Shown: positions 22,694 through 28,172, counted from the stretch's first letter. The stretch is 33,960 nucleotides of DNA from Ignavibacteria bacterium GWF2_33_9 (GCA_001804565.1 MHAC01000044.1:1-33960), one strand, 5' to 3'. The notes: a model not told the origin generated them from the letters alone. Program-made: numbers and translations.

Positions 22694-23422
22694 CTATTTA
22701 TTCATTTTCATAAACCACATAAACCAATTGTAGGAATAATACTCCTCGTTATTTTTAGCTCTGAATTGTTCAGCTTCCTTTTCATTTGAAGGGGGTACGA
22801 TCATGCAATCCTGTCCTTTTACCCAATTTACCGGTGTGAGAAGTTTATCATTATATGTCAATTGCAAAGCTTGCAAAACACGATAAATCTCATCCATATT
22901 TCTTCCTACTGTGCCAGGATAAAAAGCAATAAATTGAATACGATTATCAGGACTTATTATAAAAACACCTCTTACATTTTTTGTACTATTTGTATATGGA
23001 TGTTGCATCCCATACAGTTTTGAGATCCTCATATTAACATCAGATATTAGAGGGAACTTAATTTTTGCGGGTTTTCTCCCCTGATATTCCAGTTTTTCCA
23101 TTATTTCAATCCATGAGAAATGGCTCGGGATACCATCAGTAGAAATTACCATAATTTTTGTTTCCAAGTCGTCGAATTTACCTTGCATTTGTGCAAGCTC
23201 CCAGATTTCTGAAGTGCAGACAGGTGTGAAGTCTGCAGGGTGACTGAAAATTATCCTCCACTTGCCGTAAAAATCATCAGGGAATTTTAGAGTTCCCATT
23301 GTTGATTGTGCCTCGAAAGATGGAGCAACCTGGTTTAGTGTCGGGATTTGTAAGTCTTCCTTTATCTGAGCAAATAAGTTCATCGAAAGAAAGAAGAGCA
23401 AAATGTAAGTAAAATGTTTCAT
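22694..23422 (-). CDS. Secreted peroxiredoxin, Prx6/1-Cys-like
   Basis: The ATG at 23422 is five bases after GGAGG (23432-23428); an upstream TTG lacks such a site. The 242-residue protein starts with a signal peptide (MKHFTYILLFFLSMNLFAQ). The AhpC/TSA domain follows, with the peroxidatic C69 in HPADFTPVCTSE and its T66. The Prx6-group features R174 in GRNMDEIYRVLQAL and PVNWVKGQDCMIVPP come later, where C206 could be a resolving cysteine like those of archaeal peroxiredoxins. It should reduce peroxides with a thiol donor, in the periplasm. Most Prx6 proteins are cytosolic, so export is notable. The gene is convergent with the oxidoreductase and divergent from osmC across 314 bases. Ends in a cluster of aromatic residues (YYSYNWFMWFMK). 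Confidence 0.92.
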   Translation of the reverse strand: MKHFTYILLFFLSMNLFAQIKEDLQIPTLNQVAPSFEAQSTMGTLKFPDDFYGKWRIIFSHPADFTPVCTSEIWELAQMQGKFDDLETKIMVISTDGIPSHFSWIEIMEKLEYQGRKPAKIKFPLISDVNMRISKLYGMQHPYTNSTKNVRGVFIISPDNRIQFIAFYPGTVGRNMDEIYRVLQALQLTYNDKLLTPVNWVKGQDCMIVPPSNEKEAEQFRAKNNEEYYSYNWFMWFMKMNK

Positions 23423-23736
23423 TTTAGCCTCCAATGTTTTTTACTTAATTAACTAAACGAAAACAAATACAATTATTTTAGTTGTGGCGAAATATATATT
23501 TAGTTTTCCCTAATACTGATTATATTCACATATAATATGCGATTATAAATAAAATTATACAGTAATTATATGCCTTGTATAATACGGCTGCATCGTTATG
23601 AATAATATTTATGGCTAAATATCGACAATTTTTATAACTATTTATCATCATACTGAATATTTTATGAAAATAGTCAAAAAAATCATTTTATTTGATTAAT
23701 TTGCATTTTTACATTTTAACTAATAAGGAAAATAAA
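23423..23736. other. Divergent intergenic region between peroxiredoxin and osmC
   Basis: The 314 bases hold no gene. They are strongly AT-rich and must contain two divergent promoters. An inverted repeat TATAAT-N5-ATTATA lies at 23531-23547, which could be an operator, but its spacing does not match the PerR box (which has a one-base centre) and the composition makes chance repeats common. No OxyR- or Fur-type site was recognised. Confidence 0.4.
23428..23432 (-). promoter_or_regulatory. Ribosome-binding site that fixes the peroxiredoxin start
   Basis: GGAGG on the minus strand stands five bases before the ATG at 23422. It favours that ATG over the TTG at 23434, and the resulting protein begins directly with its signal peptide. 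Confidence 0.7.
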
Positions 23737-24153
23737 ATGAAATTCACAAGAAAAGCAAAGGCAAACTGGCAAGGAGCCGGTAAAGATGGCAAAGGAACAC
23801 TATCAACTGCAAGTGGAATCCTTAACGAAACACCATATAATTTCTCCATGAGATTTGAAAATGAACCGGGCACAAATCCCGAAGAACTCGTTGGTGCTGC
23901 TCATGCAGGTTGTTTCACAATGAAATTAAGCTTTGTTTTAGGTGAGCATGGATTTACTGCAAATAATATGGATACAGAAGCAACTGTTACTTTCGAAGAT
24001 GGCAAAATATCGGAAATCCATCTAAATCTTTCTGCTTCTGTTGACGGAATTGACGATGCAAAATTCCAGGAATTAGCAGCTTTCGCAAAAGCCGAATGTC
24101 CAATTTCCAAATCATTAAATACCAATATTACTTTGACAGCAAAGCTAGTATAA
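23737..24153 (+). CDS. OsmC-family organic hydroperoxide peroxidase
   Basis: The 138-residue protein reduces organic hydroperoxides with two cysteines. The first is C59 in GAAHAGCFTMKLSF and the second C121 in AECPISKSLN, the exact OsmC arrangement; the arginine-type switch region lies in MRFENEPGTNPEEL (38-51). The start at 23737 has AAGGA seven bases upstream; an alternative start at 23692 would add 15 unrelated residues. It ends before a strong hairpin, so it is probably monocistronic. The length and order fit OsmC proper rather than Ohr. It is cytoplasmic (no signal peptide), which complements the exported peroxiredoxin transcribed away from it. Confidence 0.95.
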   Translation: MKFTRKAKANWQGAGKDGKGTLSTASGILNETPYNFSMRFENEPGTNPEELVGAAHAGCFTMKLSFVLGEHGFTANNMDTEATVTFEDGKISEIHLNLSASVDGIDDAKFQELAAFAKAECPISKSLNTNITLTAKLV

Positions 24154-24173
24154 AGTAAATAATTCATGTCCTG

Positions 24174-24202
24174 AAAAAACGCCTTAACGAGGCGTTTTTT
24201 TA
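24174..24202 (+). terminator. Intrinsic terminator of osmC
   Basis: CGCCT (24180-24184) pairs with AGGCG (24190-24194) around TAACG, extended by six A-T pairs, and a run of seven T follows from 24195. It is a classic rho-independent terminator and separates osmC from the Rieske operon. Confidence 0.92.
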
Positions 24203-24321: not shown

Positions 24322-24732
24322 ATGACAAGAGATGAATTTTTGAAAGTATTAGGCTTGGGAGCAGTTGCTACAGCTTCCATGTTTTGCTTTGGAGGGTGCA
24401 GCAGCGATTCTCCAGCCGCCCCGCAAAATGTTGATTTCACAATTGACATTTCACAATCTTCATATGCAACATTGCAAAATATTGGTGGATTTATCATTAA
24501 AGATGGAGTAATTATTGCTCATATAGAATCAGGTGAATATATTGCTTTGAGTGCTGCTTGCACTCACGAAGGTACAATAATTAATTATAATTCCGGTCAA
24601 AATCTCTTTGTTTGCCCGGCACATGGTTCGGAATTCAATACTGACGGGACTGTTGCAAAGAATCCTGCAAACAAATCTTTGACAAAATATAATGTTACGG
24701 TAACAGGTAATTCAATAAGAGTTTATTCATGA
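24322..24732 (+). CDS. Rieske [2Fe-2S] lipoprotein
   Basis: The 136-residue protein has a Rieske cluster-binding fold: C80-T-H82 in the first box and C98-P-A-H101-G-S in the second, spaced 15 residues apart. The N-terminus (MTRDEFLKVLGLGAVATA) resembles a Tat-type leader with only one arginine, followed by a lipobox-like FGGC with C26 as the likely lipidated residue, then a Ser/Pro-rich linker. The protein should be anchored in a membrane and hold its iron-sulfur cluster outside the cytoplasm. It differs from bc1-complex Rieske proteins, whose boxes read CTHLGC and CPCHGS, by lacking the disulfide cysteines. It heads a four-gene operon with a b561-like cytochrome, YceI and a T9SS protein. Confidence 0.92.
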   Translation: MTRDEFLKVLGLGAVATASMFCFGGCSSDSPAAPQNVDFTIDISQSSYATLQNIGGFIIKDGVIIAHIESGEYIALSAACTHEGTIINYNSGQNLFVCPAHGSEFNTDGTVAKNPANKSLTKYNVTVTGNSIRVYS

Positions 24733-24733
24733 T

Positions 24734-24737
24734 AGGA
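24734..24737 (+). promoter_or_regulatory. Ribosome-binding site for the b561-like gene
   Basis: AGGA within the end of the Rieske gene lies six bases before the ATG at 24744. It supports this start over the ATGA overlap at 24729. Confidence 0.5.
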
Positions 24738-24743
24738 AGTAAA

Positions 24744-25619
24744 ATGAAACCATTAACTATAACATTTGCAGTCATCGCTTTTTTCTCCTTTACTTCAATG
24801 AAGGCTGAAAATATAGTTATTCCAGGAGAGACTCAGCAATCCGAGATTACGAATCAATCAAGTTTGCATTCAACCGAGGATTTTTCATTATTTTCCGAAA
24901 GTAAAGACGGCCTTTCAAATCGTGTGAATGAATGGGCGGATGAACAAAATTTCGGTAATACCGATTATTATGATATTGAAATGAAAGAAAACCAAAATGA
25001 ATTGTTTGCACTCAATTCAGCACAGGATGATACAACGCAGACCGAAAATGATTTAAGTTTTGATGATTTCAACACTGATACAAACCCTAATGCAAATTTA
25101 CTTCCTGAAAATATTAGCTGGAATGAAAGAATGTTTTGGGGTAAAAGTGGTGTGATGCGAAAATTGGGATTGGCAGGTGAACTCTCAGCAGAACAAAGAA
25201 CAAAAGAAATTGGGTGGAGAAGAACTTTCCTCACAATGCACCAAACAACCGGACTTCTCACCTTAGGATTGATGCTGGCATCGTGTTATACCGGTCAAAT
25301 GCATCTCAATGGGGAACCTAACTACTTGAATTACCATGAAGCATTTACTACCAGCACAATAGTTGGGTATTCACTCACAGGTTTTTTGGCATTTATGACT
25401 CCTCCTCCTTCAATTAAAAGGAATGAATTTTCAACAATATCAGTACATAAAACGTTGGCATATTTACATATGGCAGGTATGATTCTTACTCCAATCCTGG
25501 GTTCACAAATTGAGGACAGCAGTAATTGGAATAAAGCTGCTCAATTCCACCAGACATCGGCTTATATAACAACAGCTATATATGCTTCAGCAATGGCTGT
25601 AATTTTATTATTTGATTAA
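24744..25619 (+). CDS. Cytochrome b561-like membrane protein with long acidic N-terminal region
   Basis: Starting at the ATG at 24744, which has AGGA six bases upstream, the protein has 291 residues. The longer ATG at 24729 overlaps the Rieske stop as ATGA and would hide the signal peptide by five residues. Residues 1-21 form a signal peptide; residues 22-120 are polar, acidic and Asn/Gln-rich, with no recognised fold. The C-terminal half has about four TM helices with conserved His: H166 (TFLTMHQTTG), H198 (NYHEAF), H235 and H242 (SVHKTLAYLHMAGM), and H269 (QFHQTSAY). The paired histidines fit two b-type hemes, as in cytochrome b561-like proteins. It should move electrons across or along the membrane to neighbours in this operon. 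No crystal-level assignment is possible from sequence. Confidence 0.72.
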   Translation: MKPLTITFAVIAFFSFTSMKAENIVIPGETQQSEITNQSSLHSTEDFSLFSESKDGLSNRVNEWADEQNFGNTDYYDIEMKENQNELFALNSAQDDTTQTENDLSFDDFNTDTNPNANLLPENISWNERMFWGKSGVMRKLGLAGELSAEQRTKEIGWRRTFLTMHQTTGLLTLGLMLASCYTGQMHLNGEPNYLNYHEAFTTSTIVGYSLTGFLAFMTPPPSIKRNEFSTISVHKTLAYLHMAGMILTPILGSQIEDSSNWNKAAQFHQTSAYITTAIYASAMAVILLFD

Positions 25620-25638
25620 TATTAATATGATAATTAAA

Positions 25639-26187
25639 ATGAAAAAGATATTTTTTTTCTTTGCAATCTTTGCAATTCTGAACTTAAATCTTTTTGCTCA
25701 AGAAGCAGTTCAACTCACAAATACTAAGAATACTGAGATTATTTATACATTGAGTCATCCTGCACACGAAGTAGAAGCAAAAAGTAAGGACTTGCAAGTG
25801 AAAATTGAATATGATAAAAAAGGAAACAAAGTAACAAAGGCAATTGCAATGGTAAAAGTAACTTCTTTCGATAGCGGCAATTCCAGCAGGGACTCTCACG
25901 CAATGGAATCAATTGAATCCACTAAATACCCCACTGCAACCTTTAAAAGTTCTAGTTTTGCTTATGATGGTGACAGTTTAAAGATCTATGGTTCAATCAC
26001 ATTCCATGGTGTTACAAAACTGTTAACTATTAATGCAAAGCAAAGCTTGTCGGGTAATTATCTTAAAATCACAGGACGTTTTGGAATAAGCCTTGATCAT
26101 CACAATGTGGAAAGACCAAAATTGCTCTTTGTACCAACGGATGAATACTTACATTTTAGTTTCACAGCTGATTTTAACATTAAATAA
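25639..26187 (+). CDS. YceI-family secreted lipocalin-fold protein
   Basis: The 182-residue protein starts at 25639 with a signal peptide (MKKIFFFFAIFAILNLNLFAQ). The earlier in-frame starts at 25612 (TTG) and 25627 (ATG) put extra residues before this leader. The YceI fold is shown by HAMESIESTKYPTATFKSS, LKIYGSITFHGVTKLLTI and GRFGISLDHHNVERP, three blocks that line the hydrophobic pocket for isoprenoid lipids in family members. YceI genes often accompany cytochrome b561 genes, and here one follows the b561-like gene by 19 bases. The ligand could be a quinone-like or other isoprenoid lipid; that is inference. There is no metal or heme motif. Confidence 0.9.
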   Translation: MKKIFFFFAIFAILNLNLFAQEAVQLTNTKNTEIIYTLSHPAHEVEAKSKDLQVKIEYDKKGNKVTKAIAMVKVTSFDSGNSSRDSHAMESIESTKYPTATFKSSSFAYDGDSLKIYGSITFHGVTKLLTINAKQSLSGNYLKITGRFGISLDHHNVERPKLLFVPTDEYLHFSFTADFNIK

Positions 26188-26200
26188 TTAAGGAACACAT

Positions 26201-27013
26201 ATGAATAATTATAAATTCATTTTAATATTACTTTTAGCAGTAATATTTAGTACAGGAAATATTTTTGCAAGGAAAAACGGAATTAATGGATTGACTTCAA
26301 CAAAAGCTCAGGGGTGTTTTTGTCATAATATAACAGCAAGTGAAGAAACAGTCCTTTCCATTACAAGTTCAACCGGATCTTTCACAGTTGAACCGGGTTC
26401 AACCACGAAATTTACAATAACAGTGAATCACCCTACTTTACTTGCAGCAGGGATTGATATAGCTGTGGGTATTACATCCGAAGATGATGAACATATAGGG
26501 ACATTAAGCCCAATCACCGGAGAAGGTTTAAATATTCTTGGCGAGGAACTGGTACATTCTGCTCCGAAAGACTTGCAAAATGGGAGTGTTTCATTCAGTT
26601 TCAACTGGACTGCTCCATTGGAGGAAGGTATCTATAATTTACGTGCTGTCGGAAATGCCGTAAATAAAAACAATAAAAGCGATAATGCAGATAAATGGAA
26701 TTATATGTTACCTCAAAGTATTAATGTGAAAGGTCCTAATTCTATTACTGATAATTTTCTGACAAAAGTAGTATTCCCGAATCCATTTAGTGATTTTACA
26801 GTATTCAACTTAAGTGATTTTAATCAAGGTTCAATTCAACGTATTTCGATTGCAGATGTGAAAGGGAATGAAATCCTTAGTATCCCCGTTTCATCAAAAA
26901 TATTTAAATGGAATGGAAAAGATGCTAATGGTAAAAATGTTGCTGCCGGAATATACTATTTGATTATCCAATTAAGAAATGAAAGGAGAATTATACCACT
27001 TATTTCATTATAA
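26201..27013 (+). CDS. Choice-of-anchor-V-like secreted protein with C-x-C-H motif and T9SS sorting domain
   Basis: The 270-residue protein begins 13 bases after the YceI stop, with AGGA six bases upstream. A signal peptide (1-23) precedes NGINGLTSTKAQGCFCHN, where C39-x-C41-H42 resembles a shortened heme c site (normal C-x-x-C-H). Residues about 45-175 form a Reeler-like, choice-of-anchor-V-type beta sandwich (FTVEPGSTTKFTITV, PLEEGIYNLRAVGNAVN). The C-terminus is a type A T9SS sorting domain (VVFPNPFSDFTVFNL, AAGIYYLIIQL). It should be exported to the outside or held on the surface. In eukaryotes Reeler domains stand beside b561 domains, and here a b561-like gene lies in the same operon. 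The gene stops one base before the stop of the convergent glycosyltransferase. Confidence 0.75.
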   Translation: MNNYKFILILLLAVIFSTGNIFARKNGINGLTSTKAQGCFCHNITASEETVLSITSSTGSFTVEPGSTTKFTITVNHPTLLAAGIDIAVGITSEDDEHIGTLSPITGEGLNILGEELVHSAPKDLQNGSVSFSFNWTAPLEEGIYNLRAVGNAVNKNNKSDNADKWNYMLPQSINVKGPNSITDNFLTKVVFPNPFSDFTVFNLSDFNQGSIQRISIADVKGNEILSIPVSSKIFKWNGKDANGKNVAAGIYYLIIQLRNERRIIPLISL

Positions 27014-27014
27014 C

Positions 27015-28172
27015 TTATTCACTTAGATAACTTTTGCAAAAATCAATTAATTTTATTGAATCATAACGCCAGCGATATTGTTTCATAAATGCATCACGAG
27101 CATTTTTAGAACAAGCCGGCCAGTTTTTGTTAGGAATTGAATTAATGAAATTTACAATTGCATCCGAATCATCACAATCAACTACAAATCCTGTATGAGT
27201 TTCCTTCACTATTCTCTTTAAAGGAACTGCCTTGGAAACAATAACAGGAATACCAAGTGCAAAATAATCGAATATCTTATTATGAATTGTATAATTATTG
27301 AAATCATTTACTTGATAAGGCAGAATTCCTATATCAAAATTAGATATAATGCTCACTAAATTCTGAGGTTGAAAGTTTCCATGGAAAATCACATTATCAC
27401 AGTCCTTCGCAATTTTCATTAATTCCGGGATTTCATCGCCATCACCAGCAATTTCCAAACGGAAGTTTTCATGATTTTTGAAATTTTCGGCAAAAGCTGT
27501 CACAAAGTTCTTTATACTCTTTTCACTTGTATGATATCCGTGATGACCAATTGTGTATATACTTCCAAACTCCTTATTAATTTTTTGGGGAAAGTTTCTT
27601 TTTAATGGAGTATTATGAACAATTTCAATTTTATCTAAATCATATTTATAAACTCTGTTCAACCTTCTTTTTTGTTCATTGCAAACTGTGATAATACCAT
27701 CCATAAGGGGAACTACTTTTGCCTCGACCTTGTCGGGCAGACGGAGTTTATGAACCAAAAATCTGGAAATGAAATTTTTATTATACTTTTTCCAGGCACG
27801 CATAGCTGCAGGATAATTTTCAGCCATATCGAGTATAATTGGAATTTTGAATTCATGAGCAAGTTTCCCGGCAGTTTCAGCCAGCATAATTTCACGCACT
27901 ATTATTAAATCAGGAATTATTTCTTCAATTGCCTTTTTGATGGCTTTATTCCATGTTGGATTAAATGGCAAAGGATATGAACGAATTGAATGTTTGAGAT
28001 AACCTACTCTATGAATGTGAACATTGTCTATTACTTCAGAATCGTGAACTTCGTTGCCCCATCTTGCTAAAATATGCACCTGATACTTTGCTTCAGTCAA
28101 TGACTTACAGAATTTTTCGACACGAACATCCCAGGGGTATGGACTTTTCCAAATGTAAAGTATTTTCTTCAT
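27015..28172 (-). CDS. GT4-family glycosyltransferase
   Basis: The 385-residue protein has GT-B folds typical of GT4: an N-terminal acceptor domain opening KILYIWKSPYPWDVRVEK, the donor domain with VHNTP (185-189), TIGHHGYHTSEKS (207-219), EIAGDGDEIPEL and NYTIHNKIFDYFALGIPVIVS (293-313). D302 stands where many relatives have the first Glu. There is no signal peptide; two hydrophobic patches do not make a TM segment. It stops one base from the stop of the T9SS protein, with no room for a terminator between them. The sugar donor and acceptor are unknown, and no other polysaccharide gene is adjacent. Confidence 0.88.
   Translation of the reverse strand: MKKILYIWKSPYPWDVRVEKFCKSLTEAKYQVHILARWGNEVHDSEVIDNVHIHRVGYLKHSIRSYPLPFNPTWNKAIKKAIEEIIPDLIIVREIMLAETAGKLAHEFKIPIILDMAENYPAAMRAWKKYNKNFISRFLVHKLRLPDKVEAKVVPLMDGIITVCNEQKRRLNRVYKYDLDKIEIVHNTPLKRNFPQKINKEFGSIYTIGHHGYHTSEKSIKNFVTAFAENFKNHENFRLEIAGDGDEIPELMKIAKDCDNVIFHGNFQPQNLVSIISNFDIGILPYQVNDFNNYTIHNKIFDYFALGIPVIVSKAVPLKRIVKETHTGFVVDCDDSDAIVNFINSIPNKNWPACSKNARDAFMKQYRWRYDSIKLIDFCKSYLSE

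Follow-up and report, generated by a model that had tools for sequence, protein, structure and literature searches.

A conserved Rieske, b561-like and YceI gene module of Ignavibacteria and their relatives, joined in some lineages by a Reeler-like surface protein

Four adjoining genes of Ignavibacteria bacterium GWF2_33_9 encode a Rieske protein (R), a b561-like membrane protein (B), a YceI-family lipocalin (Y), and a choice-of-anchor-V surface protein (V). The first three form a conserved module, R-B-Y, within which B-Y is the irreducible core, and V is an accessory, lineage-specific addition. With middling confidence, we propose that the operon is an extracytoplasmic redox relay built round the Rieske-b561-YceI core, its likeliest job being to keep the quinones and lipids of the envelope reduced. 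The parts each belong to or resemble known families, and the nearest kind of system is the b561-YceI pair. What is new with respect to the literature searched is the addition of the Rieske protein, the unclassified B family, and the recruitment, at least twice, of a C-Xn-C-H protein with Reeler-like features. No publication was found that names the gene set, in keeping with the preliminary description of this DNA, or that joins YceI, Rieske, and b561 proteins; papers mentioning both YceI and Rieske proteins concern, by their titles, unrelated subjects.

The window, meaning the whole stretch of 33,960 nucleotides that was analyzed, lies in contig C44 of a 2.65-Mb genome (G000) that is about 94% complete. 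Relatives of this genome include contigs named Candidatus Kapabacteria and Kapaibacterium. The features of the operon and its left edge are as follows.

24172 to 24202, + strand: terminator-like hairpin, 14 pairs and then a T run (consensus match only)
24322 to 24732, + strand: R, Rieske [2Fe-2S] protein of 136 aa, with a lipobox-like Cys26 and the motifs C80-x-H82 and C98-x-x-H101
24729 to 25619, + strand: B, b561-like membrane protein of 296 aa (ORF, conservation, AlphaFold2 model, VIA-align)
25627 to 26187, + strand: Y, YceI-family lipocalin with a signal peptide, of a subfamily tied to B (Pfam YceI)
26201 to 27013, + strand: V, choice-of-anchor-V protein of 270 aa (NF041895 and Por_Secre_tail)

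The preliminary description, made from the sequence alone, had outlined a four-gene operon at 24322 to 27013 with its genes 4 to 19 bases apart. ORF calls confirmed four near-contiguous, co-directional genes on the + strand at these coordinates, and all four gene readings (Rieske, b561-like, YceI, and T9SS C-x-C-H protein) proved right. R and B share a 4-base overlap, ATGA. The gap from B to Y is 7 or 19 bases, depending on whether Y starts at the ATG at 25627 or at 25639, the two likely start codons of a TTG-started frame that runs from 25612, and 13 bases separate the Y stop from the V start. The operon is bounded on the left by the hairpin, which lies 3' of an upstream OsmC gene, and on the right by a glycosyltransferase gene on the opposite strand (27015 to 28172). 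A peroxiredoxin gene (- strand) and the OsmC-like gene occupy 22694 to 24153, directly upstream of the operon; they were dropped as functional context, not being kept in relatives.

The gene set occurs far beyond chance, since it is recurrent across a phylum. Among 60 near relatives, counting the genome itself, B was present in five; the exact order R-B-Y-V was found in a congener and in another member of the family, R-B-Y in one further genome, and B-Y in another. An alignment of B, used as the query, matched 33 of 395 genomes of the phylum, 26 of 245 genomes of the class, and 170 stretches in GTDB contigs, a collection in which a scan with the single B sequence gave nothing. The GTDB loci came from Kapabacteria, Ignavibacteria, relatives of Chlorobi, Kryptonia, and many Bacteroidetes, including Emticicia. 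When 53 whole-genome B loci (a few genomes being counted twice) were scored with local profiles, 39 held R, B, and Y, seven of these with V as well, 13 held B and Y, and one held B alone. Y accompanied B in 52 of the 53 and R did so in 39. The GTDB contig counts rest on 80 of the 170 stretches, on named Bacteroidota/Chlorobi contigs. There, Y shared the strand of B and was no more than about 2 kb away in 78 of the 80, a figure that includes seven overlapping frames missed by a limit of -50 bases and one locus (L078) at 1.7 kb, and R was present in 34. These counts, from the 53 whole-genome and 80 contig loci, are what define R-B-Y as the module and B-Y as its core. The idea that all four genes make up one system was thus sound as to a real conserved operon, but the core is R-B-Y; as to conservation of the four-gene order, R-B-Y recurs phylum-wide (39/53), whereas V is found in only seven of those 39.

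R matches the Pfam Rieske family at 2.7e-12 (46.9 bits against a cut-off of 20.3), and across 29 aligned sequences its ligands C80, H82, C98, and H101 do not vary. The window protein lacks the second cysteine of either loop (CTHEG, CPAHG); these extra cysteines are absent from most of the 29 and present in a few. The nearest solved chain is 5cxm and the nearest named families are the Rieske subunits of b6f/bc1 complexes. R shares its ligand motifs with 5cxm and the b6f Rieske proteins, its best solved-structure matches, but differs from them in its missing loop cysteines and in sitting with B-Y rather than with a cytochrome b. That family resemblance would fit a role for R in the respiratory chain, within a bc-like or alternative complex, its clustering with B and Y being merely regulatory, yet we consider this very improbable. 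No PF00033 match, and so no cytochrome b of the bc1/b6f type, was found in the genome at about 94% completeness, and R therefore needs another partner and works elsewhere; membership in a bc complex was rejected on this ground. The start-stop overlap of R and B, and the fact that R follows B-Y across the phylum, further argue against a merely regulatory linkage.

The AlphaFold2 model of B, built from 62 sequences, begins with a signal-like helix and a low-confidence stretch (about 24 to 110), followed by four helices (154 to 193, 199 to 223, 236 to 261, and 267 to 294) in a bundle with pLDDT mostly >90. The membrane part had been credited with six suitably placed histidines. All six are real (H171, H192, H203, H240, H247, and H274), but five are conserved: H171, H240, H247, and H274 are invariant in 83 of 83 B sequences and H203 is kept in 79 (95%), whereas H192 is not conserved in that set. 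From their order along alternating helices we infer that H171 and H240/H247 would lie near one face of the modeled bundle and H203 and H274 close to the opposite face, which gives a 1-3/2-4 pairing as in diheme bundles. VIA-align ranked the designed diheme protein 4D2 best (Z 13.2), a score that for a helical bundle is suggestive only, as a common helix arrangement can give Z values of about 13; bacterial NOX (Z 10.3) and the plant cytochrome b561 4o6y (Z 10.2) stood in lower rows. A signal-like N-terminal segment is found in 55 of 62 B members, which would leave on the outside the loop that precedes helix 1 and the one that joins helices 2 and 3. Those loops are the most positively charged, and the positive-inside rule points the opposite way.

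By sequence, the kinship of B with b561 proteins is weak, though consistent among members. The b561-like label was right to that extent, but the window protein stays below the cut-off of every curated family, scoring 15.5 bits against 30.1 for prokaryotic cytochrome b561 (PF01292). Ni_hydr_CYTB is the Pfam family that most B members reach (27 of 62, weakly, best 1.2e-5), and further weak matches are to DUF4079, eukaryotic b561, and ferric reductase. The B profile aligned with seven YceJ-type proteins at hhalign probabilities of 3 to 12%. An HMM search against solved structures and a comparison with PHROGs returned no match, plain Foldseek with the model gave no significant match, and NCBIfam held no convincing model for B.

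Y belongs to the Pfam YceI family (1.8e-14, 54.8 bits against a cut-off of 23.7), and its nearest solved structure is E. coli YceI, 1y0g (3.5e-12). A profile of B-linked YceI proteins scored the operon Y at 7.9e-64 and the two other YceI genes of the genome at 1e-8 and 4e-7, which sets Y apart as a subfamily of its own, tied to B. Beyond the residues of E. coli YceI, Y has two histidines, H52 (HPxH) and H132 (TFHG), that are 95 to 97% conserved in B-linked YceI proteins and may form a ligand or cofactor site. Several solved YceI members hold an isoprenoid or quinone in the barrel (PMC9113575).

Two characterized systems bear on the B-Y core, and one is a superoxide oxidase (SOO). The SOO CybB of E. 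coli is a four-helix diheme protein in which electrons taken from superoxide go on to quinone (PMC11869295). Its four-helix, two-heme, quinone-linked design is the one predicted for B, from which it differs in that B has no sequence family match above cut-off and spaces its histidines otherwise, H240 and H247 lying seven apart in helix 3. The other is LcoA-BcnA, in which PsrA is a partner; it shares with E. coli yceJ-yceI, and with the present operon, a widely conserved order within one operon, where a membrane protein gene (of b561 type in those pairs, b561-like here) directly precedes that of a secreted YceI lipocalin. In Burkholderia cenocepacia, loss of the b561 gene and the adjacent lipocalin gene leads to more membrane lipid peroxidation, and its authors proposed that quinone bound by BcnA is re-reduced by LcoA (PMC9113575). 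This lipid-peroxyl-radical defence, which has no Rieske or Reeler-like partners, is the closest functional precedent for the operon. Compared with both pairs, B scores under the Pfam cut-off for b561 and its kinship may be remote, Y carries additional conserved histidines, and the operon includes a Rieske lipoprotein along with, in certain lineages, a surface protein that is Reeler-like. The preliminary description had suggested that electrons could pass to the outside or between periplasmic partners; for the b561-YceI pair, the best precedent from experiment is lipid-radical defence rather than ferric reduction.

The operon might, then, serve superoxide or lipid-radical defence outright, with B oxidizing superoxide or re-reducing YceI-bound quinone in the manner of CybB or LcoA, and with R and V ancillary. 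We judge this somewhat unlikely. The gene order is that of yceJ-yceI and lcoA-bcnA, SOO provides a four-helix diheme protein that delivers superoxide electrons to quinone (PMC11869295), and the peroxiredoxin and OsmC genes stand just upstream in the window, but those neighbors are not kept in relatives, homology of B to CybB or LcoA was not demonstrated by sequence comparison, and the scheme leaves no place for the Rieske protein.

V is a member of the choice-of-anchor-V family by the curated cut-off (NCBIfam choice_anch_V, NF041895; 2.6e-30, 105.5 bits against 42). Its layout is C39-F-C41-H42, a Reeler-like beta-sandwich at about 44 to 178, and a T9SS sorting tail at 191 to 261; the tail passes the Por_Secre_tail cut-off in both libraries (5.3e-8), and the genome encodes a T9SS (SprA_N, 2.9e-46). 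The sandwich domain was modeled with pLDDT mostly 80 to 93. The first six Foldseek matches of the model are F-spondin Reeler domains (E 1.8e-6 to 1.9e-5), as are the top three in VIA-align (Z 11.5 to 11.7, the Z of 11.7 spanning 117 residues), and the next family is cytochrome f (Z 9.9). The window V itself gave no match to Pfam Reeler (PF02014) at E 0.01; the B-linked V of locus L184 is above that family's cut-off (26.1 against 21, 1.4e-5), and six of 54 V relatives match it (best 2.8e-7). The parallel drawn earlier between b561 and Reeler domains gains structural support from these matches and, through a relative, support from Pfam. A search of the literature on choice-of-anchor V found none, and most family members occur alone or in Ig-repeat proteins of 800 to 950 aa, not adjoining a b561-like gene. 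In V proteins of about 830 to 930 aa (L190, 5756 to 8257; L191, 5636 to 8428), the V domain is followed by Ig-like and ASH repeats. The genome of the window has a second, large V protein on contig C63 (L187, 5070 to 7487), its start partly masked by N.

The heme-like motif that had been pointed out in V is present as C-F-C-H, which is not the canonical C-x-x-C-H heme c motif. The spacing among 82 V relatives is C-X1-C-H in 47, C-X2-C-H in 20, C-X4-C-H in seven, and C-X3-C-H in two, so the window form, the commonest in the family, is typical of it, and decay from CxxCH was rejected as a general rule. C-x-x-C-H is found in V relatives at L046, L047, L057, L183 to L185, and L186, and the other B-linked V proteins have CxxCH. 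Cytochrome c assembly genes are present in the genome.

V closes the operon in Kapabacteria (R-B-Y-V) and opens it in three genomes that belong to a different, distant class (V-R-B-Y; L183, L184, and L185). In the V tree, the Kapabacteria and V-R-B-Y proteins fall in separate starred parts (97/93), which forces at least two label changes, and these positions imply that V was recruited separately to R-B-Y. Other families of the same order have V beside Y and R without B, and a relative of the same genus keeps R and V with B and Y not beside them; with groupings so varied, R, Y, B, and V behave like a recombining toolkit.

Animal CYBDOM proteins (SDR2/FRRS1, CG8399) pair a Reeler-fold extracellular part with a diheme b561-type membrane part, as the operon may do with V and B. 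In SDR2 and CG8399, the Reeler, DOMON, and b561 domains form a single chain; these proteins show ferric reduction in vitro, and the role of their Reeler domain is not established (PMC10691727). The bacterial genes, by comparison, are separate and lack DOMON, V has a C-Xn-C-H motif and a T9SS tail, and the partners are Rieske and YceI proteins instead; the parallel is close for some of the parts and does not extend to their arrangement. No literature was found on a bacterial Reeler protein with b561.

This parallel is the basis for reading the operon as a ferric or other extracellular reductase, in which B and R would relay quinone-pool electrons to V at the surface, as in animal Reeler-DOMON-b561 proteins that reduce ferric iron in vitro (PMC10691727). 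The Reeler-like fold of V (Foldseek top six F-spondin; VIA-align Z 11.7), the Reeler matches of the L184 protein and of 6/54 V relatives, the joining of V to R-B-Y in two lineages, and its predicted export by T9SS all speak for it, as do the sister Y-R-V clusters, which adjoin a CxxCH protein resembling an outer-membrane barrel. However, with V missing from most R-B-Y modules, the core job cannot be surface reduction; the Reeler domain's own role in the animal proteins is not established (PMC10691727), and no iron transport or siderophore gene adjoins the operon. We regard this reading as quite unlikely. A broader proposal combines B, as an unnamed membrane redox family of Bacteroidota, and the Rieske-b561-YceI module with Reeler-like C-Xn-C-H proteins recruited at least twice. 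The whole would be a bacterial equivalent, made of several proteins, of the Reeler-b561 reductases of animals, and would carry quinone-pool electrons to the surface via a non-canonical C-x-C-H cofactor site. It is speculative and, in our estimate, unlikely.

The redox relay remains the reading that we favor, and its cofactors (heme and Fe-S), its quinone binding, and the path, direction, and substrate of its electrons are predicted. B would probably hold two b hemes in its four-helix bundle, one between H171 (helix 1) and H240 or H247 (helix 3) near one face, the other between H203 (helix 2) and H274 (helix 4) near the other face, and would exchange electrons between the periplasm and the quinone pool of the membrane. 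The barrel of Y may house a quinone or another isoprenoid, with Y acting as B's partner, as in LcoA-BcnA. R, lipid-anchored and independent of any bc complex, would use its [2Fe-2S] cluster as a one-electron donor or acceptor beside B. The likeliest outcome would be that radicals and oxidants are quenched and the envelope quinones and lipids stay reduced. In this lineage, T9SS-secreted V could be a surface or outer-membrane endpoint with a putative C-Xn-C-H cofactor site, and may widen the role to oxidants outside the cell, ferric iron or oxygen species among them. The relay is argued from the linkage of R-B-Y across the phylum, the five conserved histidines and the model of B, the weak Ni_hydr_CYTB matches of its members, the lack of a bc1/b6f-type cytochrome b in the genome, the b561-YceI mutant precedent, the occurrence of V beside R-B-Y in two parts of the V tree and with Y and R but not B in other families of the order, and the presence of cytochrome c assembly and SprA genes in the genome. 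Counted against it are the absence of R from about a quarter to half of the loci, the score of B below the b561 cut-off, its low hhalign probabilities with YceJ-type proteins, the limited weight of a Z of about 13 for a helical bundle, the conflicting topology signals of B, and the C-x-C-H of V, which is not a canonical heme c site.

One conserved unit here links a Rieske protein whose genome encodes no bc-type cytochrome b, an unclassified family of histidine-rich four-helix proteins, a lipocalin, and a surface protein. Because the module is found in cultured genera, such as Emticicia, its function is open to experiment. If the V cofactor were heme, then C-X1-C-H, dominant in the V family, would attach heme through a spacing that has no native precedent known to us. 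The recurrent association of Reeler folds with b561-type proteins, if true, would bear on the role of the Reeler domain in animal ferric reductases.

Some further genes were observed near these loci. In four families of the order, a gene for a protein of 386 to 408 aa with one N-terminal CxxCH (NRC..CH) lies just upstream of YceI-Rieske-V clusters (L188, 7921 to 9081; L189, 8432 to 9595; L190, 3102 to 4268; L191, 2497 to 3723). It reached no Pfam or NCBIfam family above cut-off, and in L191 it shows a weak likeness to an outer-membrane barrel. An apparent nitrous-oxide reductase (nos) cluster lies near the operon in one relative (L010, 1 to 4603), and in L012 (8729 to 12699) the neighbors of a divergent B-Y pair are YeeE/YedE-like genes and genes for two cytochromes, one with several CxxCH motifs and one of b type.
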